A DNA stretch of 63,284 nt from Pseudaminobacter salicylatoxidans (lineage in GTDB: Bacteria; Pseudomonadota; Alphaproteobacteria; Rhizobiales; Rhizobiaceae): NCBI RefSeq assembly GCF_003148475.1, contig NZ_QGGG01000022.1:1-63284 (forward strand). The letters are read 5' to 3'. Position 1 is the first letter of the stretch, and every line of letters starts with the position of its first letter. The position numbers and the translations under genes were made by a program. Under the pieces are notes generated by a model. It made no database searches, was not told where the DNA came from, and saw only the letters and a list, made by a program, of their open reading frames with translations. This document shows, in pieces, positions 56,826 to 63,284 of this stretch.

Positions 56826-57833
56826 ATGAAGCCCCTTCTTTCCATGCTGACCGGCGCAGCCGTTGCCCTGTTCGGCGTCCACGCCGCCGCAGCGCAGGAA
56901 GCGTCCGATGGCATCGTTGTCTACAATGCCCAGCATGAAAGCCTTGCCAAGGAATGGGCCGAAGGTTTCACCAAGGAAACCGGCATCAAAATTACGCTGC
57001 GCAACGGCAAGGACAGCGAATTCGGCAACCAGATCGTCGCCGAGGGCGCTTCGTCGCCCGCCGACGTGTTCCTGACCGAAAATTCGCCGGCCATGGCGCT
57101 GGTTGAACAGGCCGGCCTGTTTGCGCCGGTCGATGCCGAGACACTGGCGCTGGTGCCGGAGACCTTCCGGCCGGAAAGCGGCAAGTGGACGGGCATCGCC
57201 GCGCGCAGCACGGTGTTCGTCTACAACAAGGAAAAGCTTTCCGCCGACCAGCTCCCCAAGTCGATGCTCGACCTTGAGAAGCCGGAATGGAAGGGCCGCT
57301 GGGGCGCATCGCCTTCCGGTGCGGACTTCCAGGCCATCGTCGGCGCGCTGCTGCAGCTCAAGGGCGAAGAGACCACTGCGGCCTGGCTCAAGGGCATGAA
57401 GGATAACTTCACCGCCTATCGCGGCAACGGCACGGTCATGAAGGCGGTCAATGCCGGCGAGATCGATGGCGGCGTGATCTACCACTATTACTATTTCGGC
57501 GATCAGGCCAAGACCGGCGAAAACAGCAATAATGTCGAACTGCACTACTTCAAGCAGCAGGATCCGGGCGCTTTCGTCTCGATTTCCGGCGGCGGCGTGC
57601 TGGCTTCGAGCAAGCATCCCAAGGAAGCCCAGGCCTTCCTGAAATGGATCGCCGGCAAGGGCGGCCAGGACATCCTGAAGAACGGCACGTCCTATGAATA
57701 TGCCGTGGGCGTGGGTGCAGAATCCAATCCGAAGCTCGTGCCGCTGGCCGATCTCGATGCGCCTGCCGTGAACCCTTCGCAGCTGGATTCGAAGAAGGTG
57801 ACCGATCTGATGACGGCTGCCGGTTTGCTTTAA
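56826..57833 (+). CDS. fbpA: Ferric iron ABC transporter, periplasmic binding protein (FbpA/AfuA type)
   Basis: 335 aa. A signal peptide (1-23, ending HAAAAQ) precedes IVVYNAQHESLAKEWAEGFTKETGIKI, typical of the family. YHYYYFGDQ (about 219-227) supplies the Fe(III)-binding tyrosine pair region. Good TTGAGGAG before the ATG. Ahead of permease and ATPase genes, and under a RirA-like box, so iron uptake is well supported. Confidence 0.92.
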   Translation: MKPLLSMLTGAAVALFGVHAAAAQEASDGIVVYNAQHESLAKEWAEGFTKETGIKITLRNGKDSEFGNQIVAEGASSPADVFLTENSPAMALVEQAGLFAPVDAETLALVPETFRPESGKWTGIAARSTVFVYNKEKLSADQLPKSMLDLEKPEWKGRWGASPSGADFQAIVGALLQLKGEETTAAWLKGMKDNFTAYRGNGTVMKAVNAGEIDGGVIYHYYYFGDQAKTGENSNNVELHYFKQQDPGAFVSISGGGVLASSKHPKEAQAFLKWIAGKGGQDILKNGTSYEYAVGVGAESNPKLVPLADLDAPAVNPSQLDSKKVTDLMTAAGLL

Positions 57834-57870
57834 CCGGCATTCGTTCTAAAGAAAGATCGCAATCGCAGCG

Positions 57871-57893
57871 CCCGCGGAAGCTTTCCGCGGGCA
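57871..57893 (+). terminator. Attenuating hairpin between fbpA and fbpB
   Basis: GCCCGCGGAA and TTCCGCGGGC form a perfect 10-bp stem with a 3-base loop. Only a weak T-run follows (ATTTTG), so part of the transcript probably continues into the permease. Confidence 0.7.
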
Positions 57894-57917
57894 TCTCATT
57901 TTGAAAGGCCGACACTC

Positions 57918-57983
57918 ATGAGCCGCTTTTCCGACCCAATCTTCGTCGGTCCGGCGCTTTTTGTCGGCAGCCACCGCATCTGA
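57918..57983 (+). CDS. Possible 21-residue upstream ORF before the permease
   Basis: ATG at 57918 ([21 protein letters not shown]) has GAAAGG about 13 bases upstream, a better site than the permease itself has. Its stop ends four bases before the permease ATG 57988, which would allow coupling by re-initiation. It could be a leader peptide, or the remains of a permease N-terminus in another frame. Confidence 0.3.
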
Positions 57984-57987
57984 GCCG

Positions 57988-59577
57988 ATGGGATACTCGA
58001 CCGGCAGCTATGCCCGCAGCGACCTCGGGGCCACGCTCCTGACGGGTCGGCGCGCGCGCCGGCGCCCGGTGTCGTGGATGGCGGTCGCGGCGGTTGTGGT
58101 CTCGCTGTTTGCCCTGCTGCCGCTCGGCTTCGTGATCTTTTCGGCCTTCCAGGCCGGCTGGCCGACCGTGGTGGAACTCGTGTTCCGGCCGCGTGTCGGC
58201 GAATTGCTGACCAATACCATATTCCTGATGCTGCTGACGGTGCCGCTGACGGCCGTGCTGGCAACGGCCCTGGCGTGGCTCACCGAGCGCAGCGACCTGC
58301 CGGGCGTGCGGATATGGTCGTGGCTCGCGGTGGCGCCGCTGGCGGTTCCGGCCTTCGTGCATTCCTATGCCTGGGTGACGCTGATCCCCGGCATGCACGG
58401 CCTGTTCGCGGGCGTTTTCATTTCCGTCATCGCCTATTTCCCGTTCCTCTATCTGCCGATCTCGGCGGCGCTGCGCCGCCTCGATCCGGCGCTGGAGGAT
58501 GCGGCCTCCTCGCTTGGCCTCAGCCCGGCCAGGGTGTTCCTGCGCGTGGTGCTGCCGCAATTGCGGCTTGCACTGTGTGGAGGCGGTCTTCTGGTGGCGC
58601 TGCATCTGCTTGCCGAATACGGGCTTTACGGCTTCATCCGCTTCGACACCTTCACCACCGCGATCATCGACCAGTTCCAATCCACCTTCAACGGAGCGGC
58701 CGCCAACATGCTGGCCGGGGTGCTGGTGAGCTGCTGTCTGGTGCTGCTCACGATGGAAATGCTCATACGCGGCCAGGAGCGTTATGCGCGCGTGGGCTCC
58801 GGCGCGGCGCGGCAGCAGCCGCGCATCAGGCTCGGCCGCATGACCCTGCCATGCCTCGTCCTGCCGCTCGTCGTCGCGCTCGTGTCGCTGGGCGTTCCGA
58901 TCCTCACCGTCGGCCGCTGGCTGATAGCGGGCGGCGCCGATGTCTGGCGCCTCGACGAGATCGGGCTGGCGCTCGGCCAGACGCTGGTGCTGGCGCTGCT
59001 CGGCGGCCTGGTGGCGACGGTGGCCGCAATTCCCATGGCCTGGATCTCGATCCGCGCGCCGGGATGGCTGCAGCGCATACTGGAAGGCACGAACTATGTC
59101 GCCGGCTCCTTGCCGGGCGTGGTGGTGGCGCTGGCGCTGGTGACGGTCGCGATCAGGGTCGTGCCGCCACTCTACCAGACGCTTTTCACCATCGTCGTGG
59201 CCTATGGCCTGATGTTCCTGCCGCGCGCGCTGATCAGCCTGCGGGCGTCGATCGCGCAGGCTCCGGTCGAACTGGAGCGCGCCGCCGGCAATCTCGGCCG
59301 TCCGCCGCTGCGGGCGCTGTGGGCGACCACGATTCGCCTTTCGGCGCCGGGCGCGGCCGCCGGCATGGCGCTTTCGGCGCTCGGCATCATGAACGAGCTG
59401 ACGGCCACGCAGATGCTTGCCCCCAACGGCACGCGCACGCTGGCCATGGCATTCTGGAACTACAGCGGCGAGATCGACTACGCCGCCGCCGCACCCTATG
59501 CGGCGATCATGGTGGCGATGTCGCTGCCGCTCACCTGGCTGCTCTATGTGCAGTCCAAGAAAATGGCTGGACGATGA
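57988..59577 (+). CDS. fbpB: Ferric iron ABC transporter permease (FbpB type)
   Basis: 529 aa with about twelve helices in two homologous halves. Each half has an ATPase-docking EAA loop: [23 protein letters not shown] near 170-192 and [23 protein letters not shown] near 425-448. ATG 57988 is used; TTG 57961 is an in-frame alternative, and neither has a good Shine-Dalgarno. The stop overlaps the ATPase start (ATGA). Confidence 0.9.
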
Positions 59578-60668
59578 GCCTGCTGGAACTTCACGGATTG
59601 AAAAAGACATATGGTCCCGTCACGGCGCTGGCCGGCGTGGACCTTTCAGTTGCCTCGGGCAGTCGCACGGCGATCGTCGGCCCCTCGGGCTGCGGCAAGA
59701 CCACGCTGCTGCGGCTGATCGCCGGCTTCGAGACGCCCGACAGCGGCAGCATCATGCTGGACGACAAGCCGCTGGCGAACGGTGCCGGCGCGGTGCCGGC
59801 GCATCTGCGCGGCATCGGCCTGGTGGCGCAGGATGGCGCGCTGTTTCCCCATCTCAGCATTGCCGAGAATATCGGCTTCGGCCTCGGGCGTCATGCCGCC
59901 GGACGCAATGAGCGCATCACCGAGCTTGCCTACACGGTGGGACTGGACAGCGCCCTGTTGAAGCGGCGGCCGCACCAGCTTTCCGGGGGCCAGCAGCAGC
60001 GGGTGGCGCTGGCGCGAGCGCTGGCCATGAGGCCGCGCCTGATGCTGCTCGACGAACCCTTCTCGGCGCTCGACACGGGCCTGCGCGCCTCCATGCGCAA
60101 GGCCGTTGCCGAACTGCTCGAGACGGCGGGCATCGCCACCGTCCTCGTCACCCACGATCAGGCCGAGGCGCTGTCCTTCGCCGATCAGGTGGCCGTCATG
60201 CGGGAGGGATCGTTCTCGCAGGTCGGAACCCCGCGCGAACTGTATCTGAAGCCCAGGGACCGGATGGTGGCCGAATTCCTCGGTGAGGCGTTGGTGCTCC
60301 CGGCAATGATCGTCGATGGCTTTGCCGAGACCACGCTCGGCCGCCTGCCGCTGGACGGCAGCGGCGAAAGGCCCGCCCTCGCCCGCGTCATGCTGCGGCC
60401 CGAGCAGGTGATGCTGGAAATCCGCCCCGCAACCGAAGCGGCCGATCCGCAGGCCGGCGCGCTTTACGGCGAGGTGGTGGAATCGGAATTCGCCGGCGCC
60501 ACGTCCACCGTGGCGGTGAGGCTCATCAACAGCCCCGATTCCCCCGAAGCGGCGGCAATCGCAAATACGCCGCTGGTGCTGCGCAAATCCGGCATCGAGG
60601 CGCCCGCCGTGGGTGAGATCGTGCGCATCCGCACGATCGGCACCGCGCATGTGCTTGCGGCGGGTTAG
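59574..60668 (+). CDS. fbpC: Ferric iron ABC transporter ATP-binding protein (FbpC type)
   Basis: 364 aa. Walker [11 protein letters not shown]-loop [22 protein letters not shown], signature [15 protein letters not shown] and Walker [15 protein letters not shown]-terminal regulatory TOBE-like domain (about 245-364) gives the CUT/FbpC length. Coupled to the permease by a four-base overlap; last gene of the iron operon. Confidence 0.93.
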
Positions 60669-60722
60669 CCCGAGCACCTTTTGACCGCAGAGAAATCCCT
60701 CGCGAAAAAAATAATTCCGGCA

Positions 60723-60753
60723 CCGATGGAATAAATCCATCGGGTCATTCGTT
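60723..60753 (+). promoter_or_regulatory. Candidate ECF-type promoter, partly inside an inverted repeat, upstream of sorA
   Basis: GGAAT (60728-60732), 17 bases, then CGTT (60750-60753) resembles ECF sigma promoters (GGAA- near -35, CGTT near -10). It lies 41 bp before the sorA ATG. The -35 part is inside CCGATGGA-ATAAA-TCCATCGG (60723-60743), a perfect 8-bp inverted repeat. Confidence 0.5.
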
Positions 60754-60793
60754 TCTTCTGTCACGATTGATTTATGGATGTCGGAGAGGACGA

Positions 60794-62011
60794 ATGATCA
60801 GCAGACGTCAGATGCTCAAAACCGCAGGCTCGGCAGCGCTCGGGGCGGCCGGCGGGCTTGCTTTTCCGGGATTGGCGGCACGCGCCGCCGAGACCGTCAC
60901 CCTGCCCTTCGCCAATGGCGAGCGCCCGCTGGTGCGTTATCCCGGCAAACGCCCGCTGATCGGCCAGACCGCGCGCCCGCCGCAGCTCGAAACGCCCTTC
61001 AGCGTCTTCAACGAAGGCATCATCACCCCCAACGACGCCTTCTTCGTGCGCTATCATCTGGCCGACATACCGCTGGAGATCGACCCCGAAGCCTACCGCG
61101 TCGAGGTCAAGGGGCTGGTCGACACGCCGCTGTCGCTGTCGCTGGACGAGCTGAAGGCGCTGCATGATCCGGTGGAGCTCGTGGCCGTGCACCAGTGCTC
61201 GGGCAACAGCCGTGGCTTTTTCGAACCGCGCATGGGCGGCGGCCAGCTCGCCAACGGCGCGATGGGCAATGCCCGCTGGAAGGGCGTGCCGCTGAAGGCC
61301 CTGCTCGACAAGGCCGGCGTGAAAGCCGGGGCGGTGCAGGTTTCGTTCAACGGCATGGATGGCCCGGCGCTGCCCGAGACGCCGGATTTCGTCAAGGCGC
61401 TGGATATCGACCACGCAGGCGATGGCGAGGTGATGATCGCCTATGCGATGAACGGCGAGGACCTGCCCTGGCTGAACGGCTTCCCCGTGCGCCTTGTGGT
61501 GCCGGGCTGGTATGGCACCTATTGGATCAAGCATCTCACCGAGATCACGGTGCTCGACAAGCCGCTCGACAATTTCTGGATGAAGACGGCCTATCGCATT
61601 CCCGACAATGACTGCGCCTGCACCGAGCCGGGCAAGCCGGCCGAAAAGACGGTGCCGATCAACAAGTTCTCCGTCCGCTCCTTCATCACCAGCGTTCTGG
61701 ACGGAGACAAGGTTGCTGCGGACGCCCCGCTGAAGCTGCGCGGCATCGCCTTCGATGGCGGGTCGGGCATCAAGGAAGTGGCCGTCTCGATCGACGACGG
61801 CAAGAGCTGGATGCCGACCGATCTTGGCGAGGACCTCGGCAAATATTCGTTCCGCGAATGGACCAGCACGGTCAAGCTGCCCAAGGGCGAACATGTGCTG
61901 AAGGTGCGCGCCACCGGCAATGACGGCAAGACCCAGCCGGAAAAGCAGCCGTGGAACCCGTCGGGTTATATGCGCAACGTGGTCGAGACCACCAAAGTCG
62001 TCGCGGCCTGA
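60794..62011 (+). CDS. sorA: Sulfite dehydrogenase, molybdopterin subunit (SorA type)
   Basis: 405 aa. A Tat signal (SRRQMLKTAG at 3-12, then a hydrophobic stretch ending AARAAE) sends a folded molybdoprotein to the periplasm. VHQCSGNSR has the Mo-ligating Cys135; the C-terminal dimerisation domain starts near 300 (LKLRGIAFDGGSGIKEVAVSIDDGKSW). It oxidises sulfite to sulfate. The next gene encodes its cytochrome partner, as in SorAB of Starkeya. Confidence 0.92.
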   Translation: MISRRQMLKTAGSAALGAAGGLAFPGLAARAAETVTLPFANGERPLVRYPGKRPLIGQTARPPQLETPFSVFNEGIITPNDAFFVRYHLADIPLEIDPEAYRVEVKGLVDTPLSLSLDELKALHDPVELVAVHQCSGNSRGFFEPRMGGGQLANGAMGNARWKGVPLKALLDKAGVKAGAVQVSFNGMDGPALPETPDFVKALDIDHAGDGEVMIAYAMNGEDLPWLNGFPVRLVVPGWYGTYWIKHLTEITVLDKPLDNFWMKTAYRIPDNDCACTEPGKPAEKTVPINKFSVRSFITSVLDGDKVAADAPLKLRGIAFDGGSGIKEVAVSIDDGKSWMPTDLGEDLGKYSFREWTSTVKLPKGEHVLKVRATGNDGKTQPEKQPWNPSGYMRNVVETTKVVAA

Positions 62012-62022
62012 GGAGAGGGATC

Positions 62023-62337
62023 ATGAAGCGTATTTCCGCAAAGGCATTGTTCGTCGCCGGTGCAACCGCCCTGCTGGGCGCCGGCTATGCCGCGGCCGAA
62101 AGCCTGTCCTACGAACTGCCGGACGAGACGGCCGAGTTCCGCCAGGGGCCGGGTGTCGAGATGGCCGAGATCAACTGCGTCGCCTGCCATTCGGCCGACT
62201 ATATCGAAACCCAGCCGCCCGCAATGGGACACGGCTTCTGGGAGGCCGAGGTCAAGAAAATGAAGAATGTCTATGGCGCGCCGATCGAGGAGGCGGACAT
62301 CCAGGGCATCGCCGACTATCTGGCTTCCACATATTGA
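62023..62337 (+). CDS. sorB: Cytochrome c subunit of sulfite dehydrogenase (SorB type)
   Basis: 104 aa. A signal peptide (1-25, ending YAAA) precedes a single heme site CVACH (Cys52, Cys55, His56) with probable axial Met68 in PPAMGHG. It takes electrons from the SorA molybdenum centre. GGAGAGGG precedes the ATG, 11 bp after the sorA stop. Its maturation requires the Ccm system, part of which is in this window. Confidence 0.9.
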   Translation: MKRISAKALFVAGATALLGAGYAAAESLSYELPDETAEFRQGPGVEMAEINCVACHSADYIETQPPAMGHGFWEAEVKKMKNVYGAPIEEADIQGIADYLASTY

Positions 62338-62460
62338 GTCGGTGCGGAATGCCTCGCATCGCTCTCTCATACGTGGTCATGCTGACGCAGGCGGGTTGCG
62401 CCGCGTTGTCGCGGCCGCAGCGATGACGCATGCTCAGGCGATGCACCGGGATCGTGACGA

Positions 62461-62994
62461 ATGCTGACGCGCACGCGCTTTGCCGAACGCCTTGCGCGCC
62501 ACCAGCAGCGGCTCTACGGCTACGCGGTCGCCATCACCGGCGACCGCGAGCGGGCGCGCGATCTTCTGCACGATTGCGTGGAACGGGCCGCGGGCGCGCG
62601 TAAATCGCCTGCCGATGATCCTGCCTTTCGCGCATGGCTGTTCACGATCATGCGCAATCTGTGGATCGACCAGGTCCGCGCCGACCGGCGGCACTCGCTG
62701 GCCACGGAAACGCTTGGCGATGCGAGGCCGGACATGCCGGTGTCGCTCGAAACCACGATGGTCAACACCTTCGCCGTCAGGCAGGCGTTCGAGCGGCTTT
62801 CGCACGACCATCGGGAGGTGCTGGCGCTGGTCGATATTTCCGGGTTCAGCTACCAGGAGGCAGCCGACCTGCTGAGCGTGCCGCGCGGCACCGTCATGAG
62901 CCGGATCAGCCGGGCGCGCGAGGCGCTGGCGCGGCTGCTTGCCGATGACGAGCCGACGGTCGTTCCCTTTTCCAGAGCCCCAAGAAAAGTATGA
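62461..62994 (+). CDS. ECF-family RNA polymerase sigma factor
   Basis: 177 aa. Region 2 spans about 8-80 (HQQRLYGYAVAITGDRERARDLLHD, AWLFTIMRNLWIDQVR); region 4 about 112-160 (HREVLALVDISGFSYQEAADLL, RGTVMSRISRAREAL). No region 3, so ECF type. It follows sorB by 123 bp and overlaps the next gene, an anti-sigma factor, by ATGA. In Sinorhizobium two ECF factors respond to sulfite and drive a sulfite oxidase operon, so a matching job here is a reasonable inference. Confidence 0.92.
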   Translation: MLTRTRFAERLARHQQRLYGYAVAITGDRERARDLLHDCVERAAGARKSPADDPAFRAWLFTIMRNLWIDQVRADRRHSLATETLGDARPDMPVSLETTMVNTFAVRQAFERLSHDHREVLALVDISGFSYQEAADLLSVPRGTVMSRISRAREALARLLADDEPTVVPFSRAPRKV

Positions 62995-63140
62995 CAGATA
63001 CCGACCGCGACCTCGAACTGCTGAATGCCTATGTCGACGGCGAATTGTCGGCGGATGCGCGTGATCTGCTGGAAGCGCGTATCGCTTCCGATGCCGGCCT
63101 TGCGCGCAAGGTGGAAACGCTAGAGTCCTTCACGTTTTGA
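62991..63140 (+). pseudogene. Anti-sigma factor gene, truncated by IS insertion
   Basis: Only 43 native residues remain: MTDTDRDLELLNAYVDGELS, then ARDLLEARIASDAGLARKVET. This is the usual zinc-finger-like or helical N-terminus of an anti-sigma factor that binds its ECF partner (ELLNAYVDGEL). At 63120 the IS630-like element begins, adding six foreign residues (LESFTF) before a stop at 63138-63140. The membrane or sensing part, normally another 150-200 residues, is lost. The start overlaps the sigma gene by four bases. Confidence 0.85.
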
Positions 63141-63284
63141 CGGAAGCGTATCCTGCGTTTGCGAGATAGTTTTGGCATTCGTCAGCTTCGATGGTTGTTA
63201 CGAGGTGTCCGACCTGGCGCCAGGTGTCCTCGATAGTTCGCTTCTGGGCCATTCGCATCCAATGCTTGATTTTAGCGAAGGCCT
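63120..63284 (-). mobile_element. 3' end of an IS630-like insertion sequence (right contig end)
   Basis: Reverse complement of 1-165, with two differences: one changes Lys to Glu in the transposase, the other is silent. It begins CTAG at 63120, directly after the anti-sigma codons. The transposase of this copy reads leftward, antisense to the anti-sigma and sigma genes. Confidence 0.8.
63130..63282 (-). CDS. IS630 family transposase, C-terminal fragment (partial)
   Basis: The last 50 residues of the same transposase as at the left end, on the minus strand, running to a stop at 63130-63132. The rest is beyond the window edge, so whether the copy is intact cannot be told. Confidence 0.75.
   Translation of the reverse strand, partial: AFAKIKHWMRMAQKRTIEDTWRQVGHLVTTIEADECQNYLANAGYASVKT

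Follow-up and report, generated by a model that had tools for sequence, protein, structure and literature searches.

The anti-sigma gene that follows an intact ECF sigma factor gene beside sorAB in Pseudaminobacter salicylatoxidans is, with near certainty, split in two by an IS630-family element. From this split we infer a loss of inhibition, read-through into the sigma gene and constitutive expression. Our main explanation, to which we give a probability of roughly 0.65, is that the element inserted into a TA within the gene for the partner anti-sigma of an ECF26-type sigma factor linked to sorAB, leaving intact sigma still being made, while the anti-sigma was cut to a 49-residue fragment with neither membrane anchor nor periplasmic domain. 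The freed sigma would bind RNA polymerase and drive sorAB from a conserved ECF promoter even when sulfite is absent, and this transcription probably continues into the sigma gene, which would reinforce the on-state.

The window, by which we mean the whole stretch of DNA analyzed (63,284 nucleotides), is an entire contig (C22); the draft genome to which it belongs (G000) comprises 4.84 Mb in 43 contigs. The features of the locus are as follows, with identities given to L057, the locus of Mesorhizobium sp. 1M-11 and the nearest relative.

60728..60753, + strand: ECF26-type promoter match GGAAT-N17-CGTT, beginning 66 bases 5' of the sorA ATG
60794..62011, + strand: sorA, SorA family sulfite dehydrogenase catalytic subunit (NF052245, 699 bits, cut-off 600; 88% to L057)
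62023..62337, + strand: sorB, SorB family c-type cytochrome subunit (NF052246, 124.9 bits, cut-off 93; 71% to L057)
62461..62994, + strand: ECF sigma factor gene of the RpoE4/SigE kind, intact (profiles, homologues)
62991..63122, + strand: 5' part of the anti-sigma gene, 44 native codons (homologues, alignment); the rest lies at C13:100-726, on another contig of the same genome
63121..63122, no strand: TA at the IS junction; TA also stands at the C13 junction
63123..63284, - strand: right end of the IS630-family element, transposase C-terminus (frame 63130-63282), its 3' end facing the sigma gene

Division of the anti-sigma gene

The sigma ORF (62461-62994) encodes 177 aa and carries both domains expected of an ECF factor, sigma2 and sigma4, with Sigma70_r2 and Sigma70_r4_2 each above its Pfam cut-off. 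The only other match to it in the genome (E <= 0.001) was on C4, next to the gene for a response regulator whose N-terminus is sigma-like, and we take this to be a factor of the general-stress EcfG type. Among the ECF factors of S. meliloti 4H41 the best match was the sigma beside a sorT-like gene (the place of L061), at approximately 53-55% identity, while the next two matched at 38% and 40%. By sequence identity, the window sigma is closest to the sulfite-responsive RpoE4, which is described as an ECF26 factor (PMC3511301). The ECF26 label used here for the window sigma is presumptive and goes by this kinship.

The anti-sigma start at 62991 overlaps the sigma stop, and the ORF reads 49 aa to 63140 (stop codon 63138-63140). 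It had been predicted to stop at residue 43. This requires correction, as there are 44 native codons (62991-63122), whose final two bases are the target TA (63121-63122), followed by five residues translated from the IS, which begins at 63123. The absent 209 residues were found at the start of contig C13 (C13:100-726), preceded by the IS end other than the one in the window. When the intact anti-sigma of a congener (locus L014 of genome G003) was compared with our genome, its residues 41-253 matched at C13:88-726 in addition to the window stub, and no third match was obtained at E <= 1. When both pieces were aligned with 11 relatives, the stub filled columns 1-44 and the C13 piece ran from column 45, so that they abut. 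Neither piece contains a stop, and their NG86 dN/dS values against L057 were 0.23 and 0.26, from which the break looks recent. A complete sigma gene coupled to an IS-truncated anti-sigma gene, as originally predicted, was confirmed.

A second intact anti-sigma gene for the same factor was also sought in the genome, and at E <= 1 just the two pieces of the one gene were found. With the stub as query a single further match was returned, on C1 (E 0.365), in a frame that we take to encode a GntR-type regulator, and it was set aside as a second anti-sigma for this sigma. The stub is named an anti-sigma because of its homologues. With respect to Pfam zf-HC2 (PF13490) it scored 22.0 bits, just under the cut-off of 22.2, and three intact relatives were also under it (16.3, 20.2 and 21.4 bits). 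Membership of zf-HC2 was set aside, as the gathering cut-off was not reached and fails to separate this anti-sigma group.

A scan of named genomes gave 63 related loci. L057 has the same order, sorA-sorB-sigma-anti-sigma, with the anti-sigma uninterrupted; the sigma is 77% identical to that of the window and the two anti-sigma pieces 61% and 56%. An anti-sigma frame of at least 200 aa was open in all 29 loci with a recognizable anti-sigma after the sigma, which provides the intact gene that relatives had been expected to show. In L069 just 50 anti-sigma residues match, within a frame of 210. The other 34 of the 63 loci were uncounted, having no match to this anti-sigma or an insufficient sigma match.

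The IS630-like character of the inserted end was supported. The window end shares 83% identity with one end of an element, carried on an Aminobacter plasmid and annotated as belonging to the IS630 family, which suggests a full length of about 1 kb; the IS end before the C13 piece is 84% identical to the opposite end of the same plasmid element. IS630 elements are expected to duplicate a TA target, and TA was present at both junctions together with inverted ends, which are short and imperfect. As to the transposase, only the IS ends match closely in the draft (83-84% to the annotated element). Copies found in the genome number at least 7 right ends, a lower bound since 40 of 118 candidates were scored, and at least 9 left ends. 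For the middle of the IS no close match was present in the draft among the matches listed, which included two weaker stretches at 70-73%; this would be as expected if the copies had collapsed and dropped from the draft. Both ends of C22 are copies of one IS end. The left contig end (1-162) is a further copy of this IS right end, with 99% identity to the one at the opposite side of the window, and adjoins a gene at 252-863 that from its translation is presumably msrA-like.

With contigs ending in so many repeated IS ends, and with a gene order past the anti-sigma that differs from L057, one may ask whether the junction is a simple insertion at all, or whether an assembly error, a mixed population or IS-IS recombination put the halves apart. 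We regard this as highly improbable, given the TA at both junctions and the abutting halves. Even if a rearrangement had taken place, the anti-sigma would be split all the same and the regulatory reading would stand. The adjacency of C22 and C13 is probable on these grounds. Synteny was rejected as proof of their joining, because the genes after the anti-sigma differ between L057 and C13: in L057 they are, as we take them, ABC transporter genes, while on C13 other genes follow on the opposite strand. Directly after the anti-sigma remainder, C13:764-5751 (L047) holds two long minus-strand frames of 1132 and 530 aa, which we presume to resemble a DnaE2/ImuB mutagenesis cassette.

ABC transporter genes also stand before sorA in the window (56826-60668), and those of L057 occupy L057:7747-12145; we take both sets to be of the iron type. 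DNA matches between them were 58 bases at 79% and 338 bases at 67% in the ATPase gene, and 30 bases elsewhere, and the likeness may be general ABC similarity.

A putative sorA promoter and probable transcription into the sigma gene

sorA and sorB do lie directly upstream of the sigma gene, and both products pass the NCBIfam equivalog cut-offs and qualify as a SorAB sulfite dehydrogenase. The promoter match 5' of sorA reads GGAATAAATCCATCGGGTCATTCGTT, and L057 has the same spacing. A second match stands 315 bases 5' of sorA, within the upstream gene. As the motif alone is not rare within the window (6 found, 5.13 expected), the promoter call is made from position and conservation. GGAAT-N16-18-CGTY was present 5' of sorA or sorT in 18/18 related loci with both genes, where approximately 0.18 were expected (200 mononucleotide shuffles per locus, sorA start estimated from the match); these loci are not all independent, since L059 and L060 appear to be duplicate records of one locus, and L061 is closely related to L064. 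This conservation upholds the proposal that sorAB is a target of the sigma.

A GGAAT/CGTC consensus is known from promoter mapping in both S. meliloti and St. novella (PMC6527743), and the mapped S. meliloti promoters described in PMC6180224 are those of sorT, rpoE4 and SMc01418. The putative sorA promoter of the window agrees with both save for its -10, CGTT rather than the commoner CGTC, a form also present in 5/18 related loci. The window has linked sulfite-oxidizing enzyme genes with a promoter match of this type, CGTT replacing CGTC. Naming a wider regulon by the motif was abandoned, as GGAAT-N17-CGTY gave too many matches in the genome (76, as 33+43, versus 24, as 8+16, for the reversed pattern).

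A sorA- or sorT-like gene stands near the sigma in 18/63 loci, and in 17 of these 18 the sigma and anti-sigma come first. The order of the window, which is shared with L057 only, is less usual in that the sigma gene comes after the sorA promoter that the sigma itself is taken to recognize. The motif precedes the sigma in five of the 18 loci (L058, L059, L060, L061 and L064), and no motif of the GGAAT-N16-18-CGTY form does so in the window or in L057. There is a GGAAT at 62346-62350 followed 21 bases on by CGTG (62346-62375), beyond the tested spacing, which is a possible promoter of the sigma's own. A simple scan of 60600-63284 gave no terminator-like and no sigma-70-like site (2.2 and 0.4 expected). 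As the sigma gene begins 123 bases 3' of sorB, and neither a motif of the tested form nor a terminator-like site was found in between, it is plausible from the sequence, and we think probable, that transcripts begun at the sorA promoter run on into sigma.

The sigma might instead be silenced in effect, by antisense transcripts from the IS or through its cost being offset elsewhere, with the sulfite response off or unchanged. The transposase on the minus strand does read toward the sigma, and free sigma may be costly, because over-expression of RpoE4 slowed S. meliloti (doubling time approximately 4 h versus 3 h, PMC3511301). We judge silencing very unlikely all the same. The sigma frame is intact, with an NG86 dN/dS of 0.22 against L057, while an outward promoter in the IS is hypothetical and the middle of the IS is absent from the draft.

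Inhibitory potential of the anti-sigma fragment

An AlphaFold2 model of the L057 anti-sigma (L057:6531-7292; 15 sequences, mean pLDDT 81) has helices at residues 3-15, 21-33, 35-57 and 72-97, followed by an alpha/beta domain. We take helix 72-97 as the membrane span and the alpha/beta domain as periplasmic. The L057 model accordingly has the N-terminal helical domain, membrane helix and periplasmic domain of the EcfR4 kind; both pieces from our genome align to it, while the window piece alone covers only the first 44 residues. A cut after residue 44 keeps helices 1 and 2 and 10 of the 23 residues of predicted helix 3. Because a cut inside predicted helix 3 removes everything after it, derepression of sorAB is likely on this model: a stub with two helices and less than half of the third from the predicted sigma-binding domain, and with neither anchor nor periplasmic part, would leave the sigma free to bind RNA polymerase.

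The stub could nevertheless still inhibit, helices 1 and 2 binding sigma4 and holding the sigma largely inactive with no sulfite signal, and the regulon being locked low or half-on. It keeps helix 1 with the conserved AYVDGEL stretch and a start that overlaps the sigma stop. In class I anti-sigma domains helix 1 contacts sigma4 and helix 4 contacts sigma2 where sigma2 meets the polymerase, and two helices are enough for CnrY, an anti-sigma of class II, to hold its sigma (PMC7406223). We consider inhibition by the stub unlikely, since predicted helix 3 is cut and all beyond it lost, the second helix of CnrY binds sigma2, and in class I domains helix 2 is described as non-critical for binding (PMC7406223). 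With helix 4 as the class I contact to sigma2 and the cut falling in helix 3, the sigma2 contact should, by analogy, be lost, and retained helix 1 leaves possible room for weak inhibition. This reasoning from helix 4 may not apply here, because group AS26 anti-sigmas are described as fitting the class I alignment poorly (PMC7406223) and the L057 model has no clear helix 4, residues 58-67 being under pLDDT 50.

With respect to solved relatives of the anti-sigma, sequence comparison gave a single match (E 0.97), and fold comparison of the model by Foldseek gave none at E <= 0.001. Seven of the eight top Foldseek matches were RseB or MucB (E 0.013-0.072, TM 0.2-0.3). These matches are a weak hint that the anti-sigma is fused to a periplasmic domain resembling RseB, which, if true, bears on sulfite sensing. 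How these anti-sigmas sense sulfite is given as an open question in PMC6527743. A strain in which the membrane and periplasmic parts are removed and helix 1 is kept is a ready-made test of the inhibiting versus the sensing part.

Probable sulfite supply and precedents

A Sox cluster on C5 (G000:C5:81000-94000, L131) has SoxA, SoxB, SoxC and SoxY over cut-off and a TsuA-like gene below it, and from its gene content is a likely internal source of sulfite. Because the genome has these four genes, the organism is likely a thiosulfate oxidizer. A second SoxY match, on C20, stands beside a quinoprotein-associated SoxYZ-like carrier and outside any Sox cluster. A taurine route was set aside, as no Xsc match over the curated cut-off was present in the genome; the same search also gave matches below cut-off in 14/14 control genomes.

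It is possible, and compatible with our main explanation of a freed sigma, that the insertion arose in this strain or in the laboratory and has no adaptive meaning, which may also be true of the ecfR1 defect in S. meliloti 1021. We hold this to be the less probable view, while noting that the event looks recent (IS ends 99-100% identical among the copies found, both gene halves free of stops) and that the comparable ecfR1 defect is absent from the related GMI11495 (PMC3511301, PMC3616915). Against it, SoxA, SoxB, SoxC and SoxY make conceivable a standing sulfite load that favors constitutive SorAB. The stronger proposal is that anti-sigma loss through a single IS insertion turned a signal-gated response into a self-sustaining, permanently on housekeeping loop in support of Sox, with the sigma transcribed through sorAB from a promoter that it itself recognizes, and that the lineage retains the loop because sulfite is supplied by thiosulfate oxidation. 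This we regard as doubtful.

Sulfite-responsive ECF factors in S. meliloti, on which the original prediction drew, are well founded (PMC3511301, PMC6527743). Its further suggestion that a natural constitutive variant would be new was too broad, since the ecfR1 and cnrY cases make spontaneously freed ECF sigma factors already known, even in the same ECF group. In S. meliloti 1021 a one-base difference breaks the frame of the RpoE1 anti-sigma and RpoE1 targets are raised, the partly inactivated anti-sigma being named as a possible cause (PMC3511301); the strain is described as having a defective ecfR1 and high constitutive RpoE1 activity (PMC3616915). In Cupriavidus metallidurans, IS insertions and other mutations in cnrY/cnrX liberate CnrH and switch the efflux operon on (PMC4803752). 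Both of these come from the laboratory, whereas the mucA mutations of mucoid P. aeruginosa in patients arose in nature (PMC3750012). A narrower form of the suggestion may hold: among the papers listed from the literature searched, which excluded most subscription journals, none reported a freed sorAB-linked sigma in an isolate, or an anti-sigma gene with a link to sulfite that an IS had interrupted. What appears new, on the evidence of the sequence, is a sorAB-linked sigma probably freed via an IS630 split, in a sorAB-first order and in the genome of a likely thiosulfate oxidizer. The case would add sulfur oxidation to the list of IS-freed ECF regulons.

Among the closest known systems is RpoE4-EcfR4 with sorT-sorU-azu2 in S. 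meliloti, which shares an ECF26 sigma, a membrane anti-sigma, an adjoining sulfite dehydrogenase gene and a GGAAT/CGTC promoter (PMC3511301, PMC6180224). There the sigma and anti-sigma precede sorT and the sigma has its own motif (PMC3511301, PMC6180224), whereas in the window sorAB precede the sigma, no motif of the tested form stands before it, the enzyme scores as SorA rather than SorT and the anti-sigma is broken. In Starkeya novella sorAB is likewise linked to an ECF sigma, SigE, whose promoter is without the consensus; unlike in the window, the sigma and anti-sigma are upstream of sorAB, and no break is known there (PMC6527743). The ecfR1 defect resembles our case in that an ECF26 anti-sigma is broken, with targets up and activity called constitutive, and differs in being a one-base difference in a G run, in concerning RpoE1 of a laboratory strain and in that transcripts were measured (PMC3511301, PMC3616915). 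The cnrY/cnrX insertions of C. metallidurans match our case in that an anti-sigma gene is interrupted by an IS and an ECF sigma driving the neighboring operon is thereby freed, while metal efflux, laboratory selection and a class II anti-sigma set them apart (PMC4803752).
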